Of a stretch of DNA of 64,000 bases, positions 44,830-63,327 are shown piece by piece; positions within the stretch are counted from its first letter, which is position 1; the number at the start of each line of letters is the position of its first letter. The stretch is from NCBI RefSeq assembly GCF_000768065.1, contig NZ_JRKM01000001.1, forward strand, positions 3,826,001 to 3,890,000, in the 5' to 3' direction. Position numbers and translations under genes: made by a program. The notes below the pieces were generated by a model. That model did not search any database. It saw nothing but the letters and a program-made list of their open reading frames with translations, and was not told the origin of the DNA. This DNA is from Aquabacterium sp. NJ1. GTDB taxonomy: Bacteria; Pseudomonadota; Gammaproteobacteria; Burkholderiales; Burkholderiaceae_C.

Positions 44830-45567
44830 TTAACGCTTGTCAGCCAGCATCGCCAGGCGGCGTTTTTGCGTCTGGTTGATGTAGTACTGCAGCGTGCGGT
44901 CGCTCCAGTCCATGCCGATCAGCTCGCAGCCCAGTCGGGCGCCTTTGGATTCGGGATGGATGGCCGTGACGTGGTGGATCATCAAGGTGACGTCCATGCT
45001 GGTGTCGTCATCCAGGTCCAGACGGCATTGGCCGATCTTGACGCCGGCGGCGATCATGGGCACGTTGTCCGGCAGGAACAGGGCCACGCCGCTGAGGCTC
45101 ACGTCCAGCACGCGCAACGCCAGTTGCATTTCGGGCATGGCAGGGTGGCGGAACCTGGCCACGGGGCTCTTGGTGGCCAATGGTTGCACGCGGAATGCAG
45201 CCCGGCGCTGGAAGCGGTAGAGCACGGTGGGGTATTGCGCATTGAGGGCGCTGTGGTGGCCGCCCTTGACGTGCACCACGCCTTCCAGGTCGAACTGGAG
45301 CTTGATGCTGTCGAGGTAGGCCACGGCCACGATCTCGCCGGACTCCAGCAGGGCGTCCAGCCGGGCGTCGCTGTCTTCGGCACTGAAGCACAGGCCCCGG
45401 CCGCCTTCTGCCGCCCACATCAGGGTGGTGTAGCTGTCGCCATTGGGGCCGCTGAGCGTGACCATGGACTTGGCGTCCAGCAACTGCTTGAGCAGGGCCT
45501 GAATCTCGACGGACGAGGTGATGCGGTAGTCGTCCAGCTCGGCGGTGGCGGCGCGTGAACCTGGCAT
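44830..45567 (-). CDS. ycgR: Flagellar brake protein YcgR (PilZ domain)
   Basis: This 245-residue c-di-GMP effector slows the flagellar motor. The N-terminal YcgR domain covers about 10-115 and PilZ about 119-235. The c-di-GMP site is intact: R121, R122 and R126 in QRRAAFR, and DVSLSG at 155-160. It sits at the end of the flagellar filament block, 16 bp after fliT, linking second-messenger level to motility. Confidence 0.88.
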   Translation of the reverse strand: MPGSRAATAELDDYRITSSVEIQALLKQLLDAKSMVTLSGPNGDSYTTLMWAAEGGRGLCFSAEDSDARLDALLESGEIVAVAYLDSIKLQFDLEGVVHVKGGHHSALNAQYPTVLYRFQRRAAFRVQPLATKSPVARFRHPAMPEMQLALRVLDVSLSGVALFLPDNVPMIAAGVKIGQCRLDLDDDTSMDVTLMIHHVTAIHPESKGARLGCELIGMDWSDRTLQYYINQTQKRRLAMLADKR

Positions 45568-45583: not shown

Positions 45584-45931
45584 TCAATGCATCTTGGTGG
45601 GATCGGTGGCGTTGCCCATCATACGGCTGAGGTCGTTGATCCAGGGCTCCGCCAGGTTGCGGATCTCGGCATCGTTGACCAGGATGCGCTGCATGATGCG
45701 TGTCTTGAGCGCGACCTCGTCGGGCCCCAGGGGGTGGTCGTCGGAGGCGTGCTTGAGCTGGGCGATCAGCACGGCGCAGGCACCTTCCAGCTTGACTACG
45801 GTGTCCCAGTCGCCGGCGCGTGCGGCGTTGAGCATGTCCAGGCTGGCGTGTTCGATGGCTTCGTAGTAGCTCAACAGATTCCCGTTCATCAGGTCTTCGT
45901 CGGGCGCAGTGATCAATTCCGGGGCGTTCAT
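45584..45931 (-). CDS. fliT: FliT-like flagellar chaperone
   Basis: This 115-residue helical protein lies immediately downstream of fliS (ATGA overlap), where FliT, the FliD export chaperone, is usually found. Sequence conservation is low (LLSYYEAIEHASLDMLNAAR), as is normal for FliT. The start at 45931 is set by the fliS overlap; the longer frame to 46024 runs through fliS. Confidence 0.75.
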   Translation of the reverse strand: MNAPELITAPDEDLMNGNLLSYYEAIEHASLDMLNAARAGDWDTVVKLEGACAVLIAQLKHASDDHPLGPDEVALKTRIMQRILVNDAEIRNLAEPWINDLSRMMGNATDPTKMH

Positions 45932-46389
45932 GCGTGCACCTCCATGGCTGCGCGTACAACAGTGGCATCGGCGGGGGCGATGGCGACCCACGCGTCTCGG
46001 ATCGGAGCCAGCAGCCTGACGCATTCATCCAGCGCTTCGGTGTCGTTGCGCAGGTTGCCTTGTGTCAGGCGCATGGTGATGTAGCCGTACAGATCGCACA
46101 GCTGCTGGGCGAGTTGGCCGCCGGCACGCATGTCCAGGCCTGCCTTGAGGCCTTCGTCGACGATGCGCACGGCCTTGGAGACCGCCGCGCACTTGGCTTC
46201 GATGTTGCGCGACTGCATGGCGCCCTTGGCCTGGGCGATGCTGTCGAGCGCACCGTTGAACAGCAGTGTGATGAGTTGATGCGCGGAAGCGCCGCTGACA
46301 CCGGTCTCGATGTCAATCTGGCGGTAGACGCTGCTCATGTTTTTTGAACCGAACATACTGGCGGAGGATCCGGTAGCAGTGGCGTACAT
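45928..46389 (-). CDS. fliS: Flagellar export chaperone FliS
   Basis: This 153-residue chaperone binds flagellin C-termini before export. Y-IDIETGVSGASAHQLITLLFNGAL is the FliS signature region, followed by four more helices and the YGYITMRLTQGN segment. It lies after the two fliD-type genes and overlaps fliT, so the two chaperones are probably made together. Confidence 0.93.
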   Translation of the reverse strand: MYATATGSSASMFGSKNMSSVYRQIDIETGVSGASAHQLITLLFNGALDSIAQAKGAMQSRNIEAKCAAVSKAVRIVDEGLKAGLDMRAGGQLAQQLCDLYGYITMRLTQGNLRNDTEALDECVRLLAPIRDAWVAIAPADATVVRAAMEVHA

Positions 46390-46494: not shown

Positions 46495-47859
46495 TCAGGC
46501 CGCGTTTGCCGACATCGAGACGTCGTCTTCGTGCATGGACGACGTCGATTGCGCGTATTGCTCCAGCAGGCGCTGGCGGAACAGGGCGCCTGCGGCAGAT
46601 GGGTTGTCCTGCCCGTTGATGGGGGCCGAGGCACCCAGCGCCGCGGCCAGCGGGTCCTCGCTTCGGGTCAGTGCCAGCAGGCGTGTGGCCAGGCCCGATG
46701 AACGACCTGCGCCGCCACTGCCATCAAACAATTGTTCGACCTGGCTGGGGTCTTGCTGCAAGGCCTGGTTCAGTGCGCCTTCGTCCACCTGCAGCTGGCC
46801 GTCCTTGAGCTGGATGCCGATGGACTGGAAGGGCTGGCTCAGGGAGTTGGCACCGGCGTTCGCGCTGAAGGCTTCCTGGATGTGCTGCTCGATGGCGTGC
46901 GCCGCCTGCAGGCTGGGGTCCGAGGTGGACGGGTCGCTGGCGGCCAATTGGGTCGCCATGTCGTTGTAGGCATGCGCGAAGGACTGGATGTCCTGCACCA
47001 TGGCCTGCGTGTCGGACTCGACGTGGATCCTGACGGGATCAGGGCTTGTGCCATTGAGCCTGAGGGTCAGGCCCGACTGCTCATCCTCGATCAGGTTCTG
47101 CGGGGATTGCACCTGGCGACCATCGATGCGCAGCCGGGCGTCCTGCGCGGGCTGGGTCAGGGGGGCGTTGCCCTTCATGGACTGAGGGTCCACGCCCATG
47201 GATGCGAGCGCCTGTGCCGCTTCCGGTGAAGTCTTGCCGTCCGCTTCCGGGCTGGCCTTGAAGCCGTTGGCTTCGCCGGTGGCCGTCGAGCGCAGCACCA
47301 GGCGCGAGCCCGTGGCGTCAGAGACCACCAGGGCGATCACGCCCACGCCGGCCGCGTTGATCTTGTCGCGGATGCGCTCCAGCGAGGTGTCCTTGGGGCC
47401 CAGCATCACGCTGGCCTTGGGCCAATTGGGGTTGGTGGAAAAGGTGCTCAGCGAGGTGTTCCAGCTGCCCAGCTCGATGTTGAGCGTGCCGATGCCCACA
47501 ACGGTCGACAAGGACGAGAAGGTGGTGGAGGCCGTGCTTTGTGCCGTGGCCAGTGCGTCCACATTGATGGCGTAGTCGCCCGGCGTGGCTTTGTCGCTGA
47601 CAGCCTGGACCACCGCCTCGTTGTCCGATGTGGCCTTCGTGGCCTGCCAGGTCTGGGTCTTGTTCAGGCGTGCGGCCGCATCCATCACCGCGGAGGTGGC
47701 GCTGCGCAGCCTGGCTGCTTGCGAAAAGCGGGCGTCCGGTTCGCTGTCGGCCGAGGAGGCGTTCACATGGGCTTGCGGGCGCGCAAAAGCAGTAGCAGCG
47801 CTGACCATCATCTGGAGGTCAACGCCGTCAACTCTTGTTGCTGAGCCTACGGTAGCCAT
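46495..47859 (-). CDS. Second, divergent FliD-type filament cap protein
   Basis: This 454-residue protein resembles FliD in its middle and C-terminus: DYAINVDALATAQS, SLERIRDKINAAGVGVIALV, GSRLVLRSTATGE and FAHAYNDMATQL. The N-terminal GLGSGLD-type segment of standard FliD is missing. It has two FliD-like coiled-coil ends, but the C-terminal one is short. It follows fliD by 134 bp. It could cap a filament of the second flagellin, act as a hook-associated variant, or be degenerating. The start ATG at 47859 is preferred over an earlier frame start. Confidence 0.7.
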   Translation of the reverse strand: MATVGSATRVDGVDLQMMVSAATAFARPQAHVNASSADSEPDARFSQAARLRSATSAVMDAAARLNKTQTWQATKATSDNEAVVQAVSDKATPGDYAINVDALATAQSTASTTFSSLSTVVGIGTLNIELGSWNTSLSTFSTNPNWPKASVMLGPKDTSLERIRDKINAAGVGVIALVVSDATGSRLVLRSTATGEANGFKASPEADGKTSPEAAQALASMGVDPQSMKGNAPLTQPAQDARLRIDGRQVQSPQNLIEDEQSGLTLRLNGTSPDPVRIHVESDTQAMVQDIQSFAHAYNDMATQLAASDPSTSDPSLQAAHAIEQHIQEAFSANAGANSLSQPFQSIGIQLKDGQLQVDEGALNQALQQDPSQVEQLFDGSGGAGRSSGLATRLLALTRSEDPLAAALGASAPINGQDNPSAAGALFRQRLLEQYAQSTSSMHEDDVSMSANAA

Positions 47860-47993: not shown

Positions 47994-49472
47994 CTAACCT
48001 TTATTCCAGTTTGTGATCATCTGTGTCACGTAGCTGCTTTGGCCGCTGATGTTGGCCATGGTCTGGTCCAGCGCCGTGTATTGCGCGCGCAGGCGCTTTT
48101 CGTACAGCGTGGCGCGGGCGTCCAGTTCATCCTGGCGCTTCTGGTTGTTGGCCACGGAGGTTTTGAGGCCGGCGGTGCGGGTGGTGAGTGCACCTTCGAA
48201 GCCCAGCAGGTTGTCACCCAGGGTGCGCAGCTTGGTGGCGATGCCATCCTGGCTGCTGTCGGTCAGGTTGGCGTTGGCGAACAGTTTTTTCACTTCACTC
48301 AGTTTGCCCAGCGAGTTGGTGAGCTTGGTGCTGTTCACCGCCAGCGTGCCATCGCTTTGTACCGTCACACCCACGGACGACAGGGTGTTGAACACCGATG
48401 AGTTGCCCGAGGTGCTGCCGATGGTCGCGCGCAACTGGTTGAGGACGCCCACGGCGGTGCTGTCGCCTTGCAAGGTGCCGGCCGTCTTGGTGGAATCGTC
48501 GTACTTGGTGTTGGTGCGCAGCAAGGTGACCAGCGAGGAGTAGGCGCCGGCGAAGTCGCTGATGGCCTTGCTGATGGTGTCGTTGTCCTGCTTGACCGTG
48601 ACGGTGGCGGGGTTGTCGGTGAGCACCGGCGGTGTGCCGCTGGACGTCACGGTGAGCTTGCCCACGGTGAAGCTGATGCCGGTCAGCACGTCCGAGAACT
48701 GGTTGGTGCTGGAGGTGACATCCACGCCGTTGACCGAGGCTGCTGCATCAGTCGCCGATTTGGCCAGCTTCGTGCCGGCGGTGCCGCCCGCCGGGTCATA
48801 GGCCAGGGCAGACAAGCCTGCGTCGTCGGTGTTGTTGCCGTCACCGGTGTCGTTGACCGTCACCTTGAAGGCGTTGGCTGCGCCGGTGGCACTGGAGGTC
48901 ATCACCAGGCGCGCGCCCTTGGAGTCCTTGACGATGGAGGCGGTGACCCCCGCGGCGGCATCGTTGATCTTGTCTCGGATGGCTTCCAGCGTGTCGGATG
49001 AAGCGATGCTGATGTTCGTCGTCTTGCTCGAAGTCAGCGTGGTGCCGTTCAAGCTGCCCAGGTCGATCGTCAGCGTGCCGCTGCCCAGTGTGGACGTGCT
49101 GGATGCCAGTGCGGTGTTGGTGACCACCGATTGGGTGGACGCCAGCGAGGAGACCGATACGCTGTAGCTGCCCGTGGCCGCGCCGGACGAGGTGGTGAAG
49201 CTGACGACGTTGCTGTCCGTGGACGAGGAGGTCGTGCTGTACCAAATGTCGGGGTTGGCCAGCTTCTGCGCGGCGTCGCGCAGCGTGGAAAGATTGGACT
49301 GCACCTGGCCGAATGCCGAGATCTTGGACTGGATCTTGTCGGCTTCGGTCTGAAGGGTGGAAATGGGCTGACGCTCCAGATCCACCAGCTTGGTCACGAT
49401 GGCGTTGGCATCCAGGCCGCTGCCAACGCCCAATGAGCTGATGGTTCCAGAGATTGAAGAGGTGCTGGTCAT
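47994..49472 (-). CDS. fliD: Flagellar hook-associated protein 2 (filament cap)
   Basis: This 492-residue cap protein catalyses flagellin assembly at the tip. The N-terminal SSLGVGSGLDANAIVTKLVD, the SYSVSVSSLASTQS repeat region, IRDKINDAAAGVTASIVKD and the C-terminal coiled coil with ANISGQSSYVTQMITNWNK are standard. It is Ser/Thr-rich, as expected of an exported filament protein. It is 140 bp downstream of a flagellin gene and upstream of the divergent fliD copy. Confidence 0.93.
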   Translation of the reverse strand: MTSTSSISGTISSLGVGSGLDANAIVTKLVDLERQPISTLQTEADKIQSKISAFGQVQSNLSTLRDAAQKLANPDIWYSTTSSSTDSNVVSFTTSSGAATGSYSVSVSSLASTQSVVTNTALASSTSTLGSGTLTIDLGSLNGTTLTSSKTTNISIASSDTLEAIRDKINDAAAGVTASIVKDSKGARLVMTSSATGAANAFKVTVNDTGDGNNTDDAGLSALAYDPAGGTAGTKLAKSATDAAASVNGVDVTSSTNQFSDVLTGISFTVGKLTVTSSGTPPVLTDNPATVTVKQDNDTISKAISDFAGAYSSLVTLLRTNTKYDDSTKTAGTLQGDSTAVGVLNQLRATIGSTSGNSSVFNTLSSVGVTVQSDGTLAVNSTKLTNSLGKLSEVKKLFANANLTDSSQDGIATKLRTLGDNLLGFEGALTTRTAGLKTSVANNQKRQDELDARATLYEKRLRAQYTALDQTMANISGQSSYVTQMITNWNKG

Positions 49473-49611: not shown

Positions 49612-50457
49612 TCAACCCAGCAGCTTCAGCACAGTCTGCGGCAGCTGGTTGGCCTGCGCCACCATCGCATTGCCGGCCTGCTGCAGGATCTGGGCGCGTG
49701 ACAGGTTGGCGGTTTCTGCGGCGAAGTCGGCGTCCATGATCCGGCTGCGGGCAGCGGTCTGGTTCTCGGCGGCCACCTGCAGGTTGGAGATGATGGCGTC
49801 GAAGCGGCTCTGCGTTGCACCGTAGACGGCGCGTTCGGAGTTGACCTTGTCCAGGGCGCCGTCGATCGAGTCGATCACCGTCTTGAGCGCCGCCGAGTTG
49901 GCATCGCTGCCGATGGACACGGTGGTGCCGGTGACGGCCGTGATGCTCGCGTCAGCCAGCATGTTGGCCGTGGAGATCGTGATCAGGTCGTTGGCGGTGG
50001 TGTTGGCACCGATCTGGAAGTCCAGCGCGCCGGCACCCGAGGCCAGGATGTCCTTGCCGTTGAAGGTGGTGGCGCCCAGAACCCGGGTGATTTCCATCGA
50101 CAGCTGCTTGAACTCCTTGTTCAGGGAGTCCTTGTCGCTGGAGCTGTTGGAGGCGTTGCGGGCCTGCACAGTCAGTTCACGCATGCGTTGCAGCGCGTCG
50201 CTGACCTTGCCCAGCGCGCCTTCAGCGGTCTGGGCCAGCGAGATGCCGTCGTTGGCGTTGCGTGCCGCGACGTTCATGCCCTTGACCTGGGCGTTCATCC
50301 GCTCGGCGATGGCCAGGCCGGCCGCATCATCCTTGGCGGAGTTCACACGCAGGCCGGAGGACAGCCGCTGCATCGACACGGACAGCGACATCTGCGACGT
50401 GTTGAGGTTGCGCTGAGCGTTCAGCGAGTTCAAGTTGGTATTGATCGTCTGAGGCAT
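49612..50457 (-). CDS. fliC: Flagellin, paralog 1
   Basis: This 281-residue flagellin has conserved D0/D1 ends: [34 protein letters not shown] and the C-terminal ARSRIMDADFAAETANLS through LPQTVLKLLG. The central variable domain is short, so D2/D3 are largely lacking. It is close to the flagellin at 50693-51538, differing mostly in the middle. TAGGAG lies upstream of the ATG in a leader with a hairpin. Ser/Thr in the exposed middle are potential O-glycan sites. Confidence 0.95.
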   Translation of the reverse strand: MPQTINTNLNSLNAQRNLNTSQMSLSVSMQRLSSGLRVNSAKDDAAGLAIAERMNAQVKGMNVAARNANDGISLAQTAEGALGKVSDALQRMRELTVQARNASNSSSDKDSLNKEFKQLSMEITRVLGATTFNGKDILASGAGALDFQIGANTTANDLITISTANMLADASITAVTGTTVSIGSDANSAALKTVIDSIDGALDKVNSERAVYGATQSRFDAIISNLQVAAENQTAARSRIMDADFAAETANLSRAQILQQAGNAMVAQANQLPQTVLKLLG

Positions 50458-50692: not shown

Positions 50693-51538
50693 TCAGCGCA
50701 GCAGAGACAGGACCTGCTGGGGCAGCTGGTTGGCCTGGGCGATCATCGCGTTGCCAGCCTGTTGCAGGATCTGGGCACGTGACAGGTTCGCGGTTTCCGA
50801 CGCGAAGTCGGTGTCCATGATGCGGCTGCGAGCAGCGGTCTGGTTTTCGACCGAGACCTGCAGGTTCGAGATCACCGAGTCAAAGCGGCTCTGAGTGGCA
50901 CCGTACATGGCGCGCTCGGAGTTGACCTTGTCGATGGCGCCGTCGATGTTGTCGATCACCGTCTTGATCGCTGCGGCGTTCTGGCTGCTGTCGATCTTCG
51001 AGCTCGCGCCGGTCACAGCGGTGATGCTGGCATCGCTGTTCATGTTGGACGTCGTGACGGTGATGGTGTCGTTGCTGGTGGTGTTGGCACCGATCTGGAA
51101 GTCCTTGGCACCGGCGTTGGAACCGATGATGGTCTGGCCGTTGAAGGTGGTGCCGCCGATCACGCGGGTGATTTCAGAGGCCAGCTGCTGGTATTCCTTG
51201 TTCAGGGAGTCCTTGTCGCTGGAACTGTTCGAAGCGTTACGGGCTTGCACAGCCAGTTCACGCATACGCTGCAGGGCGTCAGAGACCTTGCCCAGCGCGC
51301 CTTCAGCGGTTTGAGCCAGCGAGATGCCGTCGTTGGCGTTGCGCACCGCGACGTTCATGCCACGCACCTGGGCGTTCATGCGTTCTGCGATGGCCAGGCC
51401 GGCGGCGTCGTCCTTGGCAGAGTTGATGCGCAGGCCCGAAGACAGGCGTTGCATCGAGGTGCTCAGCGACATTTGAGAGACGCTGGTGTTGCGCTGTGCA
51501 TTCAGGGACAGCAGGTTGGTATTGATGATTGAAGGCAT
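50693..51538 (-). CDS. fliC: Flagellin, paralog 2
   Basis: This 281-residue flagellin has the same architecture as paralog 1 ([51 protein letters not shown]) and ends VLSLLR. It has its own leader and terminator, so it is an independent transcript and could be the major filament protein. It is the flagellin nearest the glycosyltransferase island, which begins divergently at 51862. Confidence 0.95.
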
Positions 51539-51861: not shown

Positions 51862-53814
51862 ATGAAATGGGTGTCATCCGCCATGCAAACCTCGACACAA
51901 GCCGTTTTCGGCCAACAAGCACGGCTTCTGAAGCAGGCGCATCAACATTGGGAACATGGCCTGGCGTTTTCAAAGAAGGCGCAATGGCTTGCCGCCGTCA
52001 AGGAGTTCGACAAAGCCTGCAAGGCGGCACCAGCCGACACCCTGTTCAGGTTGAACCTCGCACGAGCCTTGTTGAGATCGGATCAGGCCGAGCGCGCCAT
52101 TGAAGAGACGCGCCGCATCATGGAACAGGAGCCGGGCAACCTGCTGGCACGCCAGTTCATGGGTGAGTGCCTCTCGCAAGTTGGTCGCCACAGCGAAGCG
52201 GCGAGCTACATGCTGGATGTGCCTCCTGGCATGAAGCCCAGCGCCGAGTACCTGCAGATCCTGGGGAACACCTTGTTCAGTGCGCAGCGCTATAAGGAAG
52301 GCATCCAGGTCCTGTTTGATGCGCTGTCACAAGATGTGACCCATGCGATGAGCCATTACCGCCTGGGCATCTGCTTCAATGCCGTGGGCATGAAGGCCGA
52401 GGCCATTGAGTGCCTGACCACGGCATTGACCCTGGGCCTCGATGGCGGCGAGCTGGCGGCGCAAAGCCTGCGTGTGTTCATCAGCCGCGAACTGTGCCGT
52501 TGGGATGAAGCCGCCCTGGAGATGGAAGAGGTCAACCAGCTGCTGGATGCCTTGACCCCCGAGTCGGTCAACTGGTCCTCGGTGTTTGCCGCGGTCACGC
52601 TCAGTGGCGATGTGGGCCGCCAGCTGCGTTCTGCACAGGCCTGCGCCAACTTCTATGCGCATGGCGTCAAGCCTTTTGCACCCCGTGCACCACGCCCCTT
52701 GGGTCAGCGCCTGAAGGTGGGCATGGTGTCATGCGACTTCCACCACCACGCCACCACCATCCTGCTGGCCGAGGTGCTGGAGAAGCTCGACCCCGAACGC
52801 TTCGAGCTGCACCTGTATTCACACGGCCCGGATGAAGATAGCCCCATGCGCCAGCGCATCAAGGCCGTGGCCACCCAGTTTGTGGAAGTGGGCGACTGGA
52901 GCGACCAGCAGGTCGCGCAGAAAATTCGTGATGACGACATCGACGTGCTGATCGACCTCAAGGGCCACACGGTCAATGGCCGGCTGGGCATCTTCGCCCA
53001 CCGCGCGGCGCCAGTGCAGGCCACCTACCTGGGCTTCCCGGGCACCAGTGGCGCCACCTACATCGACTACATGATTGGTGACGCCGTGGTGAGCCCCTTG
53101 GGCGAAGCGCCGCACTACACCGAGAAGCTGGCGCTGATGCCGCATTGTTATCAGCCCAATGACCGCAAGCGCCCCTTGCCCCAGCCCGACAGCCGTGCTG
53201 CGCATGGCCTGCCCGAGGATGCCGTGGTGCTGTGCGGCTTCAACCAGCCCTTCAAGCTGTCGCCCGAGGTGTTCGATGTCTGGTGCGATCTGCTCAAGCG
53301 CACGCCCAATTCGGTGCTGTGGCTGCTCAACTGGCTGGGGGACGCCGAAAACATCCTGCGCCAGGAAGCGGCCAAGCGCGGTGTGGACCCGCAGCGCCTG
53401 GTCTTTGCCCGCAAGGTGCACATCAGCGAACACATCAGCCGCTTTGCCCTGGCCGACGTCTACCTGGACAGCTGGCCCTGTAACGGCCACACCACGGCCA
53501 GCGACGCCTTGTGGGCAGGCGTGCCGATGGTGACCTATGCTGGCCACAGTTTTGCGCAACGTGTGGCGTCCAGCCTGTTGCACAACGTGGGCCTGCCTGA
53601 TCTAATTTGCCAGGATCTGGACACCTACAAGGCCAAGGTGCTGGAGTTGGCGGCCGATGCCGGCAAGCGCCAGGCCTTGCGCGAGCACCTGCACCGCGCG
53701 CGCAATGAGGCGCCCTTGTTCGACAGCGATGCCTATGCGCGCGATTTTGGCGAGCTCCTGTGGCGCATGGCCGAGCGCCAGGCCCAGGGCTTGGCACCTG
53801 ATCATTTGAGCTGA
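51862..53814 (+). CDS. TPR plus GT41 (O-GlcNAc-transferase-like) glycosyltransferase
   Basis: This 650-residue protein has about four to five TPR-like repeats in residues 20-200 and then a GT41 (SPINDLY/OGT-type) catalytic region. Characteristic segments are VGMVSCDFHHHATTILL with the catalytic His, GFPGTSGATYIDYMIGD, FNQPFKLSPEVFDVW and YLDSWPCNGHTTASDALWAG. Such enzymes transfer a sugar to Ser/Thr of proteins. It is divergent from flagellin, so flagellin is the obvious candidate acceptor (inference). A start at 51862 or 51883 is possible; neither has a strong ribosome site. It is first in the glycan island. Confidence 0.82.
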   Translation: MKWVSSAMQTSTQAVFGQQARLLKQAHQHWEHGLAFSKKAQWLAAVKEFDKACKAAPADTLFRLNLARALLRSDQAERAIEETRRIMEQEPGNLLARQFMGECLSQVGRHSEAASYMLDVPPGMKPSAEYLQILGNTLFSAQRYKEGIQVLFDALSQDVTHAMSHYRLGICFNAVGMKAEAIECLTTALTLGLDGGELAAQSLRVFISRELCRWDEAALEMEEVNQLLDALTPESVNWSSVFAAVTLSGDVGRQLRSAQACANFYAHGVKPFAPRAPRPLGQRLKVGMVSCDFHHHATTILLAEVLEKLDPERFELHLYSHGPDEDSPMRQRIKAVATQFVEVGDWSDQQVAQKIRDDDIDVLIDLKGHTVNGRLGIFAHRAAPVQATYLGFPGTSGATYIDYMIGDAVVSPLGEAPHYTEKLALMPHCYQPNDRKRPLPQPDSRAAHGLPEDAVVLCGFNQPFKLSPEVFDVWCDLLKRTPNSVLWLLNWLGDAENILRQEAAKRGVDPQRLVFARKVHISEHISRFALADVYLDSWPCNGHTTASDALWAGVPMVTYAGHSFAQRVASSLLHNVGLPDLICQDLDTYKAKVLELAADAGKRQALREHLHRARNEAPLFDSDAYARDFGELLWRMAERQAQGLAPDHLS

Positions 53815-55389: not shown

Positions 55390-55397
55390 AAACAAAA

Positions 55398-55415
55398 GCA
55401 GCCCATGAGGGCTGC
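55398..55415 (-). terminator. Terminator for the minus-strand glycan operon
   Basis: Stem GCAGCCC/GGGCTGC with a 4-base loop, followed on the minus strand by TTTTGTTTTC. It lies beyond the plus-strand terminator at 55434, so the two convergent transcripts interlock. Confidence 0.75.
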
Positions 55416-55433
55416 CTGCTTGCACCATGAAGC

Positions 55434-55457
55434 AAGCGCCTGATCGGGCGCTTTGCT
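55434..55457 (+). terminator. Terminator for the GT41 operon
   Basis: Stem AAGCGCC/GGCGCTT with a 6-base loop, followed by TGCTTTT on the plus strand. Confidence 0.7.
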
Positions 55458-55464
55458 TTTGGGC

Positions 55465-56229
55465 TCACTCGAAGATGATGTAGCTCTGGTTGCCCGAGTA
55501 GGGCGAGCGGATGAGGCGGTGCTTTGACAAGTCCAGCACTTCGCGCAGGGCAACGGTTTCGCCCGGGAAGGCTTGCAGGCACAGTTCGTCGAAACCGATG
55601 ACGCTGCCCTTGGTCAGGCGTGGCAGCAAGGCTTCCAGCGCGGCGCGGGTGGGGCGGTAGATGTCCATGTCGAAATAGGCCAACGCCACGAGGCTCTCGG
55701 GGTGCTGCTCCAGCCAGGCAGGGAAGGTGTCGACCACGTCGCCCTTGACCAGCTCGAAACGCTTGAGGCCGGGGCGAGGTGCCAGGGCTTCATGCTGGGT
55801 GAGCAGGTTCTCCAGCGTGTCCTGCCAGTTGTCGCTCACGGCCAGGTGGCCGTCCTTGAGGATGGCGTCCTGCCCATCCTGCGCCGACAGCGAGGCAAAG
55901 CCTTCGAAGGTGTCGAAGCCGATGATGCGGCGTGTGTAGTTATGCGGCTCCAGCACATTGCGCAGCGAGGCGAACAACGCCAGGTTGCGGCCCCAGCGCA
56001 CGCCGAATTCGAGCACATCGCCGTGCACGGTCAGGGCCTGCTTGTACAGGTCCGTCATGAACATGATGTGCGCCATCGACGAGCGTGTCAGGTACAGGGG
56101 CAGGTGTGCCAGCAACTGATGCGGAGGGATGGGGTTGGTGCGCAGGCTGTGTTCCAGCGTGTCATAGGCCTGGACCTCCAGCTCGCTGGCGCGCAGGCGG
56201 ACGGTGTCTTTGTAATTGGGGGTGGTCAT
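55465..56229 (-). CDS. TylF/CmcI-family SAM-dependent O-methyltransferase
   Basis: This 254-residue protein fits the TylF/MycF macrocin O-methyltransferase family: VLEFGVRWGRNLALFASLRN is the SAM motif, FDTFEGFASLSAQDGQD the second, then ALAYFDMDIYRPTRAALEAL with the metal-binding acidic residues. Such enzymes methylate sugar hydroxyls. The start overlaps the ComA-ComB fusion's stop by 4 bp (ATGA), so it is the last gene of the minus-strand glycan operon. It may methylate the sugar that carries the glycan's terminal group (inference). Confidence 0.8.
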   Translation of the reverse strand: MTTPNYKDTVRLRASELEVQAYDTLEHSLRTNPIPPHQLLAHLPLYLTRSSMAHIMFMTDLYKQALTVHGDVLEFGVRWGRNLALFASLRNVLEPHNYTRRIIGFDTFEGFASLSAQDGQDAILKDGHLAVSDNWQDTLENLLTQHEALAPRPGLKRFELVKGDVVDTFPAWLEQHPESLVALAYFDMDIYRPTRAALEALLPRLTKGSVIGFDELCLQAFPGETVALREVLDLSKHRLIRSPYSGNQSYIIFE

Positions 56230-57692
56230 GCCTGGATCCTGATGCTGCCGTCCATGTAGACGGGCGTGATGGGGAAGCTGTCCTTGGTGGCACAAAAGAG
56301 CACGTCCGCCGTCTTGCCCAGGGCGGACAGGTTCAGGCCGGATTCGCTGGCCAGGAAGTCACGGTAGAAGTCGTTGCTGGAGATGGGCTGCAGGTCGCCG
56401 AGCACGGGGGCGCCAGGCAATGACATCGCGATCTCGGAGGCAGCGATCAGGTCTTCACTGGCCATCTGGTTGTTGCGCCCGGCGCAGATGAGGGAGATGT
56501 TGCGGCGGCGGCTGCGGGCCATGTCCAGCGCCGACCTGGCCACCGCGCGTGCGTTCAGCAGCGATCCTACCAGCGTGACGGCATCGGGATTGGAAGCGGC
56601 GGCATGCAGGCATTCTGTGCCGTTGGAGGTGGTCAGCACCAATTCTTTGCCCGCCATGTCCTTGCTGGCGAAGACGAGTGGCGAGTTGTCGTATTGCAGT
56701 TGTTCGACCTTCTTGCCACCGCGTTCGCCAGCGGTGACTTCACCGATGCAGGCGTCCACGCTGGTGACGGGGCGCACACTGCGCATGCCGTGGGCCAGGG
56801 CCGTGACGATGGTGGAGCTGGCGCGCAAGGCGTCGACCACGACGATGACGTCGCCGCGTTGCGAAGCGGCCAGTGCGGCTTCTGCACCCAGGCCCATGCG
56901 GATGCAGGGGTAGTCCATGTGGTAGTACCGCAGCGTGTCGCTGCGCAGGCCCAGTCGCAAGGTTTCCAGGGGGACGACATCGGTGGGGGCGATGTTGCCC
57001 AGGTTGACCTGGTTGCCCAGCATCAGAATCAGCTCGGTCTGCTGGCTGCGCAAGGGGGCTTCGAAGATCAGGTTGTCGGCGCCAGCCTCGTTCGTGAGCG
57101 CGTGCAGCAGGTCGAGCTGGGTGCCGCCCTTCTTGTCGAAGATGCCCTGGGTGCCGCTTTCGCGGGCCTCGATGATCACCTTCCAGGCGCCGGCGGCCAG
57201 CTCCGATCGGATTTGCGCCAGGCGCTCTTCCAGGGTGATGCGCTTGTCCTCTTCCGACAGCTTGGAGCCCACTTCGGAGGTCACGCGAAAGCCCATGTCC
57301 AGGGCCTTCTTGATCATGTCGTTCTTCTGGTCCTGCGGGATGGGCACCGTGCCGTTGGACACCTCGATGCATGAAAAGCCCAGGGCCTTGGCCTGCGTCA
57401 GGTAGCTGTCCATGCGGCCTTGCAGCCAGGCCAGCTCGGTCAGGGTGCCGCCAGGGCAGCACATGATCTGGCGCTCGGCCAGCATGGCGCACTTCTTTCG
57501 GATCAGCTCGGCGTCCTGCATGGCGCTCGTGCCCCAGCCGAACTTGACCAGATCGATGCTGGATGCCGCCGTGTCCAGCAGGTCCGTCAGGGCGTTGAGG
57601 CCCATGTTCTTGTCCAGCACCATGGTCAGGCCATTGGCGCGGGGCTTGGCGGAGCGGGCTGGCAGGCGAATGTCGGGAAAGGCGGAGGGCAT
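56226..57692 (-). CDS. Phosphosulfolactate synthase / 2-phosphosulfolactate phosphatase fusion (ComA-ComB)
   Basis: This 488-residue protein joins two enzymes. Residues about 20-255 match ComA, which adds sulfite to phosphoenolpyruvate to give 2-phospho-3-sulfolactate: VKFGWGTS (49-56), PGGTLTE (80-86), IIEARESG (173-180). Residues about 275-488 match ComB, the Mg-dependent phosphatase giving 3-sulfolactate: VVDALRASST (285-294), YDNSP (334-338), TTSNGT (354-359), GSLLNARAVA (376-385). In methanogens they are separate coenzyme M enzymes; in Bacillus spores they make sulfolactate. No later coenzyme M genes are present. AAGGAG precedes the ATG at 57692. It lies in a glycan operon between an ATP-grasp gene and a methyltransferase. 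Confidence 0.85.
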   Translation of the reverse strand: MPSAFPDIRLPARSAKPRANGLTMVLDKNMGLNALTDLLDTAASSIDLVKFGWGTSAMQDAELIRKKCAMLAERQIMCCPGGTLTELAWLQGRMDSYLTQAKALGFSCIEVSNGTVPIPQDQKNDMIKKALDMGFRVTSEVGSKLSEEDKRITLEERLAQIRSELAAGAWKVIIEARESGTQGIFDKKGGTQLDLLHALTNEAGADNLIFEAPLRSQQTELILMLGNQVNLGNIAPTDVVPLETLRLGLRSDTLRYYHMDYPCIRMGLGAEAALAASQRGDVIVVVDALRASSTIVTALAHGMRSVRPVTSVDACIGEVTAGERGGKKVEQLQYDNSPLVFASKDMAGKELVLTTSNGTECLHAAASNPDAVTLVGSLLNARAVARSALDMARSRRRNISLICAGRNNQMASEDLIAASEIAMSLPGAPVLGDLQPISSNDFYRDFLASESGLNLSALGKTADVLFCATKDSFPITPVYMDGSIRIQA

Positions 57693-57714
57693 GGTTGGCT
57701 CCTTGTCGGCTCGC

Positions 57715-58815
57715 TCAACGGCGAGGCAGGCACTGCCCGATGGGCAAATCTTCGTAGTCGGGCACGAACACGGGCAGGCCGTCGATGTCCCTGAACAGGC
57801 GGTTGCGAGGCGGGAAGGTGACTTCCACGGGCCCGATGTCATCCCACAGCCCGAAGGTGGCCAGGGCCTGTGCTTCAGCCAGGTTGGCACCCTCTACCTC
57901 GGCGAAGGCCGACGCGGCCGCGACCTGACGCAGGTTGATCTCGGTGACCTTGGGGGCGTCCTGGGCATCGGTGCGCAGGTCCACGGTCACCAGGCCGTGC
58001 ATGGTTTCGCCGGTGTGGCGGCAGAGTTGCTCAACCGCTTCTTTCGAGGCGGCCACGGCAACCGGGTCGTTGATCAACCGGCCTTTGCTGATGTTGCCCG
58101 AAACACCCGAGATGACCGTCTTGGCCATGAAGTATTCCAGCCGCTCGTAGCAGCCCAGCTTGACCAGCCGGCCTTGATTGAACAGCATCAGGCAGGCGAG
58201 GTTGCGGCCCGGCAGGAACTCGGAGACCATGAAGCGTTGCGTGCCCTGGTTGAGCACCATCCAGGCGGCGGCCTCTTCCTGGCTGTGGACGTGGATGGCG
58301 CCTTTGCCGCTTGTGCTGCCTTCGCTGACGTCACGGATCCAGGCGCTGCCGGCAAAGCGGTCGAGCACCCGGCCGGCCAGGATGGCTTCACGGCTGAGGA
58401 TCTCGTAAGCCGGCACCAAGCCGGTGTGCTTGAGCAAGTCGTAGACGCGAGCCTTGCTGAGGGCCTCGGTGCTGAACCGGGGGGGGGGCAGCAAGGCGGG
58501 GGCGGGCATCGGGTTTTTCGTCCAGAACAGCACTTCCGGTTCGGGCACCACGATGGCGGCGTCGATGCGTTCGGTCTGGACGATGTTGGCCACGCAGGCC
58601 TGGTAGGCCTGCGGGTCATTCAAACGAGGGACGCGGTAGATGCGTTCGTACAGCCCTTCATAGAGCGTGAAGGGGTTGTCGCACACGTCCATCCCGATCA
58701 GTCGGGTCTGCGCAAAGCGGGGGCTTTTTCTCAAGGCCCGCACGATCGTGCGCGAGGTGACGCCACAGGCGCCTGAAATCAGCAGGCTTTTCTGATTGAG
58801 ATCGATGGGGCTCAT
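57715..58815 (-). CDS. ATP-grasp domain protein (carbamoyl-phosphate-synthase-like)
   Basis: This 366-residue protein has the ATP-grasp layout: an N-terminal Rossmann-like part (LLISGACGVTSRTIVRALRK), a central nucleotide-binding part (WIRDVSEGSTSGKGAIHV, FMVSEFLPGRNLACLMLF) and a C-terminal metal-binding part (MHGLVTVDLRTDAQDAPKVTEINLR). ATP-grasp enzymes join a carboxylate to an amine or thiol. It lies 22 bp before the ComA-ComB fusion gene, so sulfolactate is a natural candidate carboxylate, and an amino sugar made by the DegT enzyme a candidate acceptor (inference). The start at 58815 is preferred over one 39 bp upstream. Confidence 0.75.
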   Translation of the reverse strand: MSPIDLNQKSLLISGACGVTSRTIVRALRKSPRFAQTRLIGMDVCDNPFTLYEGLYERIYRVPRLNDPQAYQACVANIVQTERIDAAIVVPEPEVLFWTKNPMPAPALLPPPRFSTEALSKARVYDLLKHTGLVPAYEILSREAILAGRVLDRFAGSAWIRDVSEGSTSGKGAIHVHSQEEAAAWMVLNQGTQRFMVSEFLPGRNLACLMLFNQGRLVKLGCYERLEYFMAKTVISGVSGNISKGRLINDPVAVAASKEAVEQLCRHTGETMHGLVTVDLRTDAQDAPKVTEINLRQVAAASAFAEVEGANLAEAQALATFGLWDDIGPVEVTFPPRNRLFRDIDGLPVFVPDYEDLPIGQCLPRR

Positions 58816-58864: not shown

Positions 58865-58928
58865 CATCGTCCGGCTTGATCGGACGATGAGGCGACGTAA
58901 AGCGCGTTAAATCCGACCGGCGCCGGTC
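58865..58928. other. Hairpin pair between operon genes
   Basis: CATCGTCCG/CGGACGATG at 58865-58889 (9 bp stem, 7-base loop) and the perfect palindrome GACCGGCGCCGGTC at 58915-58928, which overlaps the stop of the upstream methyltransferase. Neither has a T-tract, so they are structural or processing elements rather than classical terminators. Confidence 0.5.
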
Positions 58929-59667
58929 ATGCCGCCAGGCGGTTTGTGTCTGCCGGGTGGGGCTTCCAGAACACGAAGAAGGGCTCCCGGCCGTTGACGC
59001 CGGACTCGGCGGGCACGGTATCGGGCAGCAGGGCGTTGTGCTGCAGTAAATCGCCCTGCAGGCCGCTTTGGTGGAAGTAATTGGCGATGTCATCACCAAA
59101 AAGCCGGACGTGGTCGGATTGGCCGTAGAGCAGGTGTGCGGTTTGCTCGTCCGGGACGGTCTTCATTTCCAGTGTGTTCTTCAAGGACGGCGCGTAAGGC
59201 GTCTGTGCGATCAGCATGCCGCCTTCGCGCAGGCAGCGGTTGATCTCCGACAAGGCCTTGCCGGGGTGCAGGACGTGTTCCAGCACGTGGTTGCAGATGA
59301 TCAGGTCCAGGCTGGCATCCTCAAAAGGCATGGCCTCGAGGTCGACGCGCTGGTGGTGCGCCTGGGTGGGGTGCAAGTCCCCCCGGATGTAGTGGGCTGG
59401 CCCGCAGGCCGCGATCAATTGCTCGATATGGCGCTCGGGCGCGATGTGCAGGATGGTGGCATCCGGCAACTGCCTGGTGATGCCGGTGGCCTGCATGTAC
59501 AGCCAGAGGTGGCGGTCGCGGTCCGTGCAGCCGCAGGCGGGGCATTGGTAGACCGACAGGTCCGATCCAACGGTGCCGAGCAGGGCCATCAGCGGGCTGC
59601 GTTGCTCGATATGGGCATGGGGTAACCAGTTGCTGACCTGGTGGTCGCATACGCAGCAGTAAGGCAT
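58927..59667 (-). CDS. SAM-dependent methyltransferase with N-terminal zinc ribbon
   Basis: This 246-residue protein has C4-x2-C7 and C42-x2-C45, which together suggest a zinc ribbon. A methyltransferase fold follows: DATILHIAPERHIEQLIA and the motif LDLIICNHVLEHVLHPGKAL. The glycine-rich SAM motif is reduced to HIAPE, as in several glycan-cluster enzymes. The start at 59667 keeps the zinc ribbon and lies 23 bp after the aminotransferase gene. Its substrate is unknown but is probably a sugar or glycan. Confidence 0.75.
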   Translation of the reverse strand: MPYCCVCDHQVSNWLPHAHIEQRSPLMALLGTVGSDLSVYQCPACGCTDRDRHLWLYMQATGITRQLPDATILHIAPERHIEQLIAACGPAHYIRGDLHPTQAHHQRVDLEAMPFEDASLDLIICNHVLEHVLHPGKALSEINRCLREGGMLIAQTPYAPSLKNTLEMKTVPDEQTAHLLYGQSDHVRLFGDDIANYFHQSGLQGDLLQHNALLPDTVPAESGVNGREPFFVFWKPHPADTNRLAA

Positions 59668-59690: not shown

Positions 59691-60875
59691 TCAGGCGGGG
59701 TTGGTGGCGTGGTGAAGCACCTCGCCGCGCGGGGCGGCTGGCACCGCCGGGCTGTCGGGCCATTGCGGCTGCCGGATGATCTGGGCCACGCGTGCAACGT
59801 CCTCGTCGCTCAGCGCCGGGTAGATGGGCAGGCAGATCACCTTGGACGAGGTGGCCTTGGCCACGGGCAGCAGGCCCGCGCTGGCGGAAGGCAGGCCGCG
59901 GTACATGGGGAAGTCCGAGATCAAGGGGTAGAAGTAGCGGCGGCCATTGATGCCGGCGTCCTTCATTTGCTGATACAGCGCATCGCGGGCGAGCGGGTAG
60001 TCCGGCTCGATCAGGATGGGGAAGTAAGAGCAGTTGACCTCGGTATCGGCCGGGGGCTCCAGCAGACGGATGCCTTTGACGCCGTTCAGCAGCGAACGGT
60101 AGAGCGCGTCGATTTCCTTGCGGCGCGCAATCGCCTTGCCCACATGCTTGAGCTGCAGCAGGCCGAGCGCGGCATTGAGCTCGCTCATCTTGCCGTTGAT
60201 GCCGGTGGCCACCACGGTGGTCTCGTTGACGAAACCGAAGTTCTTGAGGTGGTCGATGTGCTGCTTGGTGCGCGCATCCGGGCTGATGATGGCGCCGCCT
60301 TCAAACGTGTTGAACACCTTGGTGGCGTGGAAGCTGAGGATGGACAGATCACCGTGCTGCAGCACGCTCTGGCCGTGCTGCTTGACACCGAAGGCATGGG
60401 CCGCGTCGTAGATGACCTTGAGGTTGTAGTCATCCGCAATGCGCTGGATGGCTTCCACATCGCAGGGGCGGCCATAGCAGTGCACCGGCATGATGGCCGT
60501 GGTCTGCGGGGTGATGGCGGCTTCGATGCAGGCGGGGTCGAGGTTGAAGGTCTGTGGGTCGATGTCGACGAAGACCGGCTTGATGCCGTTCCACAGCAGC
60601 GAGTGCGCCGTGGCCACGAAGGAGTAGGGCGTGGTGATCACCTCGCCGCTGATGCGCAGCGACTGCAGCGCCGTCACCAGGGCGATGGTGGCGTTGGTGA
60701 ACAGCGAGATGTGCTTGACCCCGAGGAACTCGGCCAGTTCGGCTTCCAATTGCTTGTGGAAGGGGCCGCCATTGGTGAGGATCTTGCTGTCCCAGATCTG
60801 CTGCAGATAGGGCATGAACTCATCCAGCGGCGGCAGATCCGGCTGGGTCACATAGATGGGAGGCTGGGTGCTCAT
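59691..60875 (-). CDS. DegT/DnrJ/EryC1/StrS family sugar aminotransferase
   Basis: This 394-residue PLP enzyme probably aminates a keto sugar nucleotide. PLP-binding K186 lies in SFHATKVFNTFEGG, with the partner Asp in YDAAHAFGV and N/T residues in FTNATIALVTAL. The family makes amino-deoxy sugars for flagellin glycans, O-antigens and antibiotics. It sits in the middle of the minus-strand glycan operon. Nucleotide-sugar dehydratases that would make its substrate are not in the window. The start MSTQPPIYVTQP matches the family. Confidence 0.9.
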   Translation of the reverse strand: MSTQPPIYVTQPDLPPLDEFMPYLQQIWDSKILTNGGPFHKQLEAELAEFLGVKHISLFTNATIALVTALQSLRISGEVITTPYSFVATAHSLLWNGIKPVFVDIDPQTFNLDPACIEAAITPQTTAIMPVHCYGRPCDVEAIQRIADDYNLKVIYDAAHAFGVKQHGQSVLQHGDLSILSFHATKVFNTFEGGAIISPDARTKQHIDHLKNFGFVNETTVVATGINGKMSELNAALGLLQLKHVGKAIARRKEIDALYRSLLNGVKGIRLLEPPADTEVNCSYFPILIEPDYPLARDALYQQMKDAGINGRRYFYPLISDFPMYRGLPSASAGLLPVAKATSSKVICLPIYPALSDEDVARVAQIIRQPQWPDSPAVPAAPRGEVLHHATNPA

Positions 60876-60901: not shown

Positions 60902-61918
60902 TCAGCGCTTGGCTTGGGCGGGGTCGCTGGCGCTTGCGGCCGGGCCAGGGGTGTAGGACGTGGCTGGCTGGCTGGCCAGCAGCTTGAGCCAGAAGTCCCG
61001 ATAGGCCACGTACAACTCATCCAGGGAGCCGGCCTTGGTGTCCAGCACGTGGAAGTAGCCGGCCATCACGGGGTCTTCGCTGAAGTGGTGCACGATGCGT
61101 TGCGTGACCGTGCCGATCGCCTTGACGGCCGTTTCAGGGCTGATGCACCCATCGCGCCATGCTGCCAGAGCGTAGGTCACCCAGGCGAGGAAACCCACGC
61201 GGCCGCCATGGGTGGTGGTGGCCTGTTGCGTGGTCTGCTGGTCGTTCTGGCGGAACACACCCAGGTACTCACGGATGAAGGTCACCGGCAGCTGTTGTGC
61301 CGCGGTGAGCACGGCGCCGATGTCCAGCAGGCCGTAGTAGCTCAGGTCATTCGCCGGCGGGCGAGGGTAGAGCGCCGCGCCCTCTGCCGAGAACACCATG
61401 TTGCTCAACTCACCCAGCCAGTTCTGGCAGGTGCCCACCGTGCTGTTGAACAGCTCTTCGGTGGTGGGCTGCAGCACATGGCCATTGCTCTCTTGCACGA
61501 AGTCGGGCAGGGGCAGGGTCCAGGCGGGCACGCCGTCGTCATGGCTCAGCCAGCGCTGGCTCACGGTGGCGCAGCAAGGCGCGGCCATGTGGGCGGCCAC
61601 GTGGGTGCGGTAGAACTCGGGGTAGATGACGTCGTCATCCAGGTTGAAGTGCACCAGCGGGGTCTGGCCGCCCCACAAGTCCAGCAACTGCTCGTGGTTG
61701 CGGCGGGCGTTCTGCGGGCCACGCACCACGGTGAGGTTGAGCTCCGAGGTCAACTTGCCCCAGTGCTGGTTGCGGATCATGTCGGTGATGACACCGCCGG
61801 GGCTGTCGTCCGACAGGATGACCTTGAAGTCCTTGAAGCTCTGGCGGCGCAGGGCCAGGAACAGCTCGCCCAGGTATTCCTTCTTGTAGGCGGGGATCAG
61901 CGTGGTGATCTGGGTCAT
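60902..61918 (-). CDS. Family 2 glycosyltransferase
   Basis: This 338-residue GT-A glycosyltransferase opens TTLIPAYKKEYLGELFLALR, with DDSPGG and the catalytic metal motif DDD in HFNLDDDVIYPEF. The C-terminal part is helical and of unknown acceptor specificity. It starts 2 bp after the preceding gene's stop and is co-transcribed with the aminotransferase. A longer frame to 62152 overlaps the upstream gene and is rejected. Confidence 0.8.
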   Translation of the reverse strand: MTQITTLIPAYKKEYLGELFLALRRQSFKDFKVILSDDSPGGVITDMIRNQHWGKLTSELNLTVVRGPQNARRNHEQLLDLWGGQTPLVHFNLDDDVIYPEFYRTHVAAHMAAPCCATVSQRWLSHDDGVPAWTLPLPDFVQESNGHVLQPTTEELFNSTVGTCQNWLGELSNMVFSAEGAALYPRPPANDLSYYGLLDIGAVLTAAQQLPVTFIREYLGVFRQNDQQTTQQATTTHGGRVGFLAWVTYALAAWRDGCISPETAVKAIGTVTQRIVHHFSEDPVMAGYFHVLDTKAGSLDELYVAYRDFWLKLLASQPATSYTPGPAASASDPAQAKR

Positions 61919-61920
61919 GC

Positions 61921-63327
61921 TCAGTTGCTCCTGGTGGTCCGGTGCTGGGCCACGAAGCCCTGGTCGATGACGCCGCACAGCGAGTGGATGGTGCTGAAGG
62001 CGGTGTGCTTTTGCAGGATGTACTCGGCCGAGTCGTAGAAGGCCTCGGGCAGCTGCCAGCCGCTTTGCGTGTTGTGGTACAGCGGCAGGCGCACGATGCG
62101 CGGGAAGACGCGGTGTGTGCAGATGGCGCTCAGGCACAGGTCGGTGGCCCACAGGTGCCAGCCGATCTGCGGGTCGATGCGGTGGATGGAGTCTTTCGAG
62201 ATCACCAGGGCCAGCTCGTCGATGGACACGGCGGCGTCCGATGCGGGGTGGTCGGCGCTGTTGACGCGGTCGATCACAAAGCCGGCGGGTTCAGGCTGTT
62301 CGGTCTGGCGGTTGATGCCCATGCCGATGAAGCCCAGCAAGGTCTTGGGGCGGTCTTCCGCCGAGATGGTGGCCAGCAAGGCATTGAGGCGTTGGCCAAA
62401 GCCCTTGGGGAAGTAGACGTCCTGGTGGCACAGCAGCACCCAGTCGCTTTGCGCATGGGCCAGCGAGGCCTCCAGCGCTTCGGCCGGCGTGGCCGCCTGG
62501 CGGTAGGAAATGATGCGGGCCTGCACTTCCTTGAGCCCCGGCGATTGCTCGACGTTCACACGCAGTTGCTGTTCTTTGGTGGTGGGCACCACCACGTCGA
62601 ACAGTGGCTGGCTGGAGGCGGGTTGCACATCATCGAACTGGCGCACGCCGCGGATGATGAAGTGCTTCATGCGGTGCACGCGGTCGGCGCAACCTGCGGG
62701 CACACCGAGCGCATCGCCCATGTAGCGCACGGCGGCGGCCACCTTGTCGTCCATGGGCTGATCGGGCTGGTGGTCCACCAGGGTGGGGGTCCAGCCGGCG
62801 TCCAGCAGCAGCTTGTAGATGGTCGAGTGCGACTGGTAGCGGGGGTGCGCCAGCTCCTGGCTGAGCGTGTCATGAGCCGAAGCCGCGATCCCCGTGGAAG
62901 GGTCCGCCTCGATCAGGTGCGCCAGGGTGGACAGGCAGGCATGGTTCTCGGCCAGCACGAACAACTGGCCACCAGGGGCCAGCAAGGGGCCCAGCTCGGC
63001 CAGCGTCTTGGCGGCGTGGGGCAGGTGCTCCAGGCGGTTGACCACGATCAGGTCAAAGCTGCCCTTGTTGACCGGCAGGGCGGTGGTATGCGGGTTCAGC
63101 GCCAGCCACTGCGCTTGTGGGTGCCGGCGCTGATAGGCCTGGGCCAGCTCACCCTGGCCGCAATCCAGCTCCAGCACCTGCGAGGCGGCCGGCAGGGCGG
63201 CCAGCAGCCGTTGAAAAGAAGGGTCTGCGGCACGGGCTGCGCGCTCGTGGCTGGCCGGTGCCGGCGAGCCACCACCGATCACGATCAGGGCGGGTGCGGG
63301 CGCGTTGAAGGTGGCGGGTGCATTCAT
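61921..63327 (-). CDS. Methyltransferase-glycosyltransferase fusion, putative
   Basis: This 468-residue protein has a SAM methyltransferase-like N-terminus (VLELDCGQGELAQAYQ, FDLIVVNRLEHLPHAAKTLAEL; residues about 35-215). The C-terminal part (about 240-460) resembles a GT-A glycosyltransferase with DWVLLCHQDVYFPKGFG as the acidic motif region. The two domains are in the opposite order to those in the fusion at 53821-55389. It is the first complete gene of the minus-strand glycan operon seen in the window. Confidence 0.65.
   Translation of the reverse strand: MNAPATFNAPAPALIVIGGGSPAPASHERAARAADPSFQRLLAALPAASQVLELDCGQGELAQAYQRRHPQAQWLALNPHTTALPVNKGSFDLIVVNRLEHLPHAAKTLAELGPLLAPGGQLFVLAENHACLSTLAHLIEADPSTGIAASAHDTLSQELAHPRYQSHSTIYKLLLDAGWTPTLVDHQPDQPMDDKVAAAVRYMGDALGVPAGCADRVHRMKHFIIRGVRQFDDVQPASSQPLFDVVVPTTKEQQLRVNVEQSPGLKEVQARIISYRQAATPAEALEASLAHAQSDWVLLCHQDVYFPKGFGQRLNALLATISAEDRPKTLLGFIGMGINRQTEQPEPAGFVIDRVNSADHPASDAAVSIDELALVISKDSIHRIDPQIGWHLWATDLCLSAICTHRVFPRIVRLPLYHNTQSGWQLPEAFYDSAEYILQKHTAFSTIHSLCGVIDQGFVAQHRTTRSN

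Follow-up and report, generated by a model that had tools for sequence, protein, structure and literature searches.

A 64,000-nucleotide stretch of the Aquabacterium sp. NJ1 genome (contig NZ_JRKM01000001.1, positions 3,826,001 to 3,890,000; hereafter the window) carries, next to its flagellin genes, a gene for a 488-residue protein in which a ComA (phosphosulfolactate synthase) half is fused to a ComB-like (2-phosphosulfolactate phosphatase) half. The locus, we think, probably builds a sulfonated glycan and transfers it to flagellin. In the proposed pathway, the ComA half would combine phosphoenolpyruvate (PEP) with sulfite to give phosphosulfolactate, which the ComB half would dephosphorylate to 3-sulfolactate. 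A DegT aminotransferase would aminate a dTDP-4-keto-6-deoxy sugar, most likely yielding dTDP-viosamine (Qui4N), and an ATP-grasp enzyme would convert the sulfolactate carboxyl to an acyl phosphate and join it to the sugar amine as an amide. A CalS11-like enzyme would O-methylate the sugar, and glycosyltransferases would put it on the neighbouring flagellins, with a GT41 (OGT-like) protein as the likely flagellin-facing one. The substrates, that of the ligase included, the amide link, the order of the steps and the final glycan are what we infer from the gene content described below.

Profile searches with Pfam located a nearly full-length ComA domain at residues 12-252 (E 2e-85) and a 2-phosphosulfolactate phosphatase domain, PF04029, at residues 277-480 (E 1e-44), both within a single open reading frame (ORF), as the first-pass annotation of this DNA had described. 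The ComA half exceeded the cut-off of the NCBI phosphosulfolactate synthase equivalog, TIGR03849 (289.0 versus 280 bits), as did that of a fused Comamonas orthologue (282.3 bits), whereas two sulfatase-associated ComA paralogues scored about 150 bits. As a residue reference, we used 54 positions that do not vary among Methanocaldococcus jannaschii ComA (1qwg), the Bacillus subtilis-type enzyme 1u83 and five further ComAs encoded in coenzyme M (CoM) clusters. The fusion keeps 50 of the 54, including the equivalent of M. jannaschii Lys137, which we take to be the catalytic residue. By comparison, 32-38 are kept by three paralogues from sulfatase or tricarboxylate-transport contexts; the counts for two further, more divergent ComA-like paralogues are 27 and 30. 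No loss of key ComA residues of note was thus seen, and the assignment of the N-terminal half to ComA, as judged from these comparisons, is strong. In a ComA tree, the two fused proteins formed a clade of their own (100/99) within an open group that also holds the M. jannaschii, B. subtilis, Legionella and CoM-cluster ComAs and whose internal branching order is unsettled. Joining of two genes by a sequencing error was ruled out, because an uninterrupted fusion, 72% identical, is present in the Comamonas genome as well.

The ComB half scored 152.8 bits against PF04029 (cut-off 26.4) and covered profile positions 10-224 of 226. It keeps 27 of the 41 positions that are invariant in three solved ComBs, and most of the changes are conservative. 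Inspection for lost ComB residues therefore gave a mixed result: the core is kept, but this half is more divergent than the ComA half. Its assignment to ComB at the superfamily level appears good, and the predicted ComB activity of the fusion is likely.

A scan of 84,980 reference genomes with short exact peptide patterns, a method that detects close relatives only, returned a single close relative, a Comamonas metagenome-assembled genome (L002). Four proteins of the window, the ATP-grasp-like protein, the fusion, the methyltransferase encoded after it and DegT, have orthologues there (65%, 72%, 73% and 68% identity, respectively). The gene order in Comamonas is flhA, flhF-like, flhG-like, a FliA-type sigma factor, a TPR-GT41 gene, ATP-grasp, fusion, methyltransferase, a converging DegT gene and three flagellins, FlhF and FlhG being named by sequence and gene order only. 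The GT41 proteins of the two genomes are only 29% identical; none of the window's remaining transferases occurs in the Comamonas stretch, where GT41 is the only transferase recognised beside the cassette. The 4-bp overlap of the fusion and methyltransferase genes is kept in both genomes. Enzymes that together assemble a single sugar donor would be expected to stay together as these four do, even as the transferases and the arrangement of the genes vary. We therefore suggest that they travel as a sugar-building module. The fusion with its homologies and conserved residues, the co-conserved module and the flagellar setting are thus seen at the sequence level in two genomes.

The fusion gene of the window belongs to a run of eight minus-strand genes that extends from 64413, the start of the first gene just beyond the window, to 55465, the end of the last. 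In order, these encode a TPR-containing GT2 protein, a methyltransferase that may carry a GT2 domain, a GT2-type protein, DegT, a methyltransferase, the ATP-grasp-like protein, the fusion itself and a TylF-type O-methyltransferase, with intergenic gaps of 90, 2, 26, 101, 111, 22 and -4 bp. The earlier claims that 22 bp separate the fusion gene from the ATP-grasp gene, that the fusion gene overlaps an O-methyltransferase gene and that DegT and glycosyltransferase genes share its operon all agree with these coordinates. A plus-strand TPR-GT41 gene and a gene for a 522-aa probable transferase converge on the run, and the flagellar genes lie beyond them. The GT41 and GT2-type genes adjoin those for flagellins, FliD and FliS, that is, the glycosyltransferase-beside-flagellin arrangement of a flagellin glycosylation locus; a YcgR-type PilZN protein is encoded there too, and the flagellin or surface-glycan setting first proposed for the fusion is borne out.

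Among solved structures, DegT matched best (240.8 bits; the next match scored 163.4) to DesI, whose product is dTDP-4-amino-4,6-dideoxyglucose, and the O-methyltransferase was nearest to CalS11, a TDP-rhamnose 3'-O-methyltransferase (189 bits). Both the Aquabacterium and the Comamonas genome encode RmlB, the source of dTDP-4-keto-6-deoxyglucose. Taken together, the DesI-like DegT, the CalS11-like methyltransferase and RmlB point to an O-methylated viosamine-type sugar like that of Pseudomonas syringae flagellin, likely derived from dTDP-4-amino-4,6-dideoxyglucose.

ATP-grasp enzymes convert a carboxylate to an acyl phosphate and then transfer the acyl group to an amine. In the ATP-grasp-like proteins of both genomes the motifs GSTSGKGA, SEFLPG, TVDLR and TEINLR are conserved; their roles in nucleotide and metal binding we assume from general knowledge of the family. 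A full-length profile comparison (hhalign, 98.2% over 323 columns) linked the protein to a similar one in L027, which is itself under the Pfam cut-off (19.7 bits). The solved proteins nearest in sequence are PurD/GAR synthetases, with E-values (0.013 and 0.32) that are no better, or hardly better, than chance. As these enzymes couple glycine with an amino sugar phosphate, the superfamily already offers an example of the proposed chemistry. Orthologues were not found in the other 400 genomes of the family or in 363 genomes of the class (one 26% match was seen, in G102), nor was there any match in a plasmid search. The L027 protein (L027:1390-2457), a distant relative at 25-28% identity, is encoded beside a HAD gene, an NAD-epimerase gene and an apparent SPINDLY/GT41-type gene, the GT41 reading of which was made from sequence only. 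Given this setting, ligases of this group may also act in other glycan loci of the OGT type.

Alternatively, the ATP-grasp enzyme could first couple sulfolactate with an amino acid or peptide, or the sugar could be part of lipopolysaccharide or capsule and not of flagellin. ATP-grasp ligases often use amino acids, and several GT2-type genes accompany the GT41 gene. The sulfonate of the Clostridioides difficile flagellin glycan is attached to the sugar through a short peptide. However, none of the operon's genes was recognised as encoding an amino-acid transferase, whether of the FemAB type or another, the module lies among flagellar genes in both genomes, and the Comamonas cassette has only GT41 recognised beside it. 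We therefore regard a peptide-linked or non-flagellar product as unlikely, and direct acylation of a flagellar sugar by sulfolactate as the preferred reading.

Another explanation is that the fusion makes free 3-sulfolactate, as a storage compound, a spore-like constituent or an osmotic solute, or feeds CoM synthesis, and lies near sugar genes incidentally. ComA and ComB do so elsewhere. ComA relatives were found in 10 of 401 Comamonadaceae genomes, only that of the window being fused, and five of them (39-43% identity) sit with genes for an epoxyalkane:CoM transferase (EaCoMT)-like protein, a 2-KPCC-like oxidoreductase and two Lyase_1 proteins. This arrangement is the one described for bacterial CoM synthesis (PMC11507031). 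The first-pass annotation had set glycan-gene neighbourhoods against CoM or sulfolactate catabolism genes as the contexts to be distinguished. The fusion lies in flagellar loci with sugar genes in both genomes, while separate ComAs of related bacteria lie in CoM/epoxide or other catabolic clusters. The Aquabacterium genome has one ComA gene; no SuyB-family sulfolactate lyase was found in it, and the only match to EaCoMT was a 24% one inside a 768-aa frame that is probably MetE. Sulfolactate breakdown was ruled out on the first of these results, and CoM synthesis on the second and on the different make-up of the CoM clusters of related bacteria. Given also that the fusion is co-conserved with the ATP-grasp, methyltransferase and DegT genes despite rearranged surroundings, and overlaps a sugar methyltransferase gene in both genomes, a role in making free sulfolactate or CoM, with only a chance placement beside the sugar genes, is very improbable.

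In a sample of the order Burkholderiales, matches to the fusion were found in 23 of 397 genomes, one of them to the ComB half only; the neighbourhoods examined were mostly of the CoM type or rich in sulfatase and tricarboxylate-receptor genes. A search of phages gave no match. One Burkholderiales genome has unfused, adjacent ComA and ComB genes (L063:7941-9542) in a tricarboxylate-receptor-rich context; in the tree, this ComA falls beside the B. subtilis-type 1u83. In six other loci (L020, L022, L023, L066, L068 and L071), ComA-like paralogues lie beside sulfatase-fold genes and, in several cases, tricarboxylate-receptor genes; no ComB was recognised in this group, and several invariant residues of true ComAs are missing. 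These sulfatase-associated paralogues may catalyse another, perhaps catabolic, reaction.

Several observations weigh against a sulfolactyl glycan. The ComB half falls below every ComB equivalog cut-off (120.3 versus 175.05 bits for TIGR00298) and was for this reason filed as ComB-like, a member of the PF04029 superfamily, and not as a certain ComB equivalog. The segment around D433 is shorter than in solved ComBs; it is likewise missing from the Legionella and L063 ComBs. DegT scored 310.7 against the NCBI DesI-type equivalog, the cut-off of which is 650. The ATP-grasp label of the first-pass annotation held for the motifs and the full-length profile match, but the scores are weak (19.0 bits for ATP-grasp_3 versus a Pfam cut-off of 23.2), and the protein appears too divergent for its substrate to be assigned. 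Structure models built from two-sequence alignments had predicted local distance difference test (pLDDT) values of only 44.4 for the fusion and 36.7 for the ATP-grasp-like protein. Finally, the module was found in two genomes only. Some of these points would suit a fusion whose halves had drifted to another nucleophile or 2-phospho acid, so that the acyl group would be a different acid: the ComB half is under all equivalog cut-offs with one segment shortened, and the same order has ComA paralogues of clearly different context. Yet, unlike those divergent paralogues, the ComA half passes its equivalog cut-off with nearly all invariant positions in place, and it remains paired with a ComB. Such a change of substrate is accordingly rather improbable, and 3-sulfolactate is retained as the predicted acyl group.

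On balance, the evidence favours the view that some Comamonadaceae carry a flagellar amino sugar with amide-linked 3-sulfolactate, made locally from PEP and sulfite by a ComA-ComB fusion. The first-pass annotation's suggestion of a sulfolactate-decorated surface glycan, perhaps on flagellin, is thereby supported, the amide link and the sulfur-containing glycan being predictions. A sulfolactyl flagellin glycan would then be, somewhat more probably than otherwise, a third role of the ComA-ComB pathway, alongside those in CoM and in the sulfolactate of spores, and a way of making a sulfonated glycan that is encoded in the genome. If so, sulfonate metabolism would be tied to bacterial surface glycans, with enzymes named for every step from central metabolism to sulfonated flagellin. 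The locus would offer a simple test case and, in its ligase, a new candidate for attaching charged acids to amino sugars, and the filament would bear a permanent negative charge that could affect motility, adhesion, phage binding or recognition. No earlier report of sulfolactyl glycans was found in the literature searched, which consisted mostly of papers outside subscription, and this is not proof of absence.

Features of the locus are collected in Table 1. The two terminator-like hairpins after the TylF-type methyltransferase gene would end the glycan operon, but the evidence is weak, since 12 such hairpins were found versus 10.1 expected in shuffled sequences.

Table 1. Genes and sequence elements of the glycan locus and its flagellar surroundings (window coordinates).
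Feature	Position	Strand	Basis or remark
ComA-ComB fusion, 488 aa	56226..57692	-	Pfam and NCBI profiles; fused orthologue (72%) in Comamonas L002
ATP-grasp-like ligase (putative), 366 aa	57715..58815	-	Weak profiles and motifs; orthologue (65%) immediately upstream of the fusion gene in L002
TylF/CalS11-like O-methyltransferase, 254 aa	55465..56229	-	Nearest solved structure CalS11; 73% orthologue in L002
S-adenosylmethionine-dependent methyltransferase	58927..59589	-	Start uncertain: 59589 or 59670
DegT sugar aminotransferase	59691..60875	-	Nearest solved structure DesI (dTDP-4-keto-6-deoxyglucose 4-aminotransferase); 68% orthologue in L002
GT2-type glycosyltransferase	60902..61918	-	Pfam score slightly under cut-off
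Methyltransferase, possible C-terminal GT2-like domain	61921..63327	-	Profile matches
GT2 glycosyltransferase with TPR, 331 aa	63418..64000	-	Continues outside the window to 64413
TPR + GT41 (OGT-like) protein glycosyltransferase	51862..53814	+	Candidate flagellin transferase
Probable glycosyltransferase/methyltransferase, 522 aa	53821..55389	+	Weak methyltransferase match only; start may be 53872
Flagellin	50693..51538	-	
Flagellin	49612..50457	-	
FliD filament cap	47994..49472	-	
Second FliD-like protein	46495..47811	-	
FliS flagellin chaperone	45928..46356	-	
YcgR-type (PilZN) flagellar regulator	44830..45567	-	
Two terminator-like hairpins, one per strand, between convergent runs	55396..55453	.	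Consensus match only

Elsewhere in the window, two identical-looking 209-aa ORFs (25234-25863 and 27407-28036) begin a run of proteins that reaches 30382 and whose members have a similar 16-letter motif near the N-terminus. Tandem near-identical 442-aa paralogues with signal-like N-termini are encoded on the minus strand at 36930-38258 and 38541-39869. About 55 kb beyond the window, a 5089-residue ORF (G000:C1:3944683-3959952; L031:2683-17952), which begins MKSKARSPFAWMKRPAKVLDRARFDGQLEELEPRILFSADA, is probably a giant repetitive surface protein.

The ComA and ComB of methanogen CoM synthesis and of Bacillus spore sulfolactate belong to the same two families, with the same predicted reactions in the same order; here, in contrast, they are fused, no further CoM genes were recognised, and the locus is one of flagellin glycosylation. 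The ComA homologue of Xanthobacter-type CoM clusters passes the same equivalog cut-off, but these clusters have two Lyase_1 genes and EaCoMT, and no ComB beside ComA. On a Legionella lytica plasmid, adjacent ComA and ComB match 98% of the fusion at 39.6% identity (tblastn), but ComA there forms one protein with a fatty-acyl-AMP ligase and a carrier domain, and no sugar genes are nearby. The gene for this 970-aa protein overlaps the ComB gene (L032:12859-16487; NZ_CP071528.1, 318583-322211) and is preceded by genes for a class I/II pyridoxal phosphate-dependent enzyme and a LysE-type exporter; the locus is a candidate pathway for a sulfolactate-containing lipid or natural product.

The flagellin of Pseudomonas syringae carries viosamine that is N-acylated, with 3-hydroxybutyryl on the amine, and O-methylated, the methyl being added by VioM; its viosamine island comprises vioA, vioM, vioT, vioS, vioB, vioR and acp (PMC3927599). 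As in that island, an aminotransferase and a methyltransferase would work with an acyl-supply set. The acyl group in P. syringae comes from acyl carrier protein (ACP) and ketoacyl enzymes and an acyltransferase; such ACP-linked acyl-supply and acyltransferase genes were not recognised here, and the ComA-ComB fusion and the ATP-grasp-like gene, which would serve instead, are in their place.

The closest parallel to the sulfonated cap is in C. difficile (PMC5207245, PMC5207246). The terminal Fuc3N of type B flagellin is acylated by a taurine-Ala-Gly unit, the locus has ATP-grasp and FdtB-like DegT genes, and an ATP-grasp mutant is without the sulfonated cap. The genes CDR20291_0244-0247 resemble the present locus in being flagellin glycan genes with DegT and ATP-grasp, there by fliC and here by the flagellins; in the C. 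difficile glycan, an amide links the sulfonated group to a dideoxy amino sugar, as proposed here. They differ in using taurine via Ala-Gly, a FemAB-like acyltransferase and an ornithine cyclodeaminase-like enzyme, and the text consulted mentions no ComA-ComB. The loss of the cap in the mutant is the best experimental support for the proposed ligase role. The text consulted does not settle which C. difficile genes make the sulfonate; in the present locus, the sulfonated acid would be made from PEP and sulfite by enzymes encoded within it.

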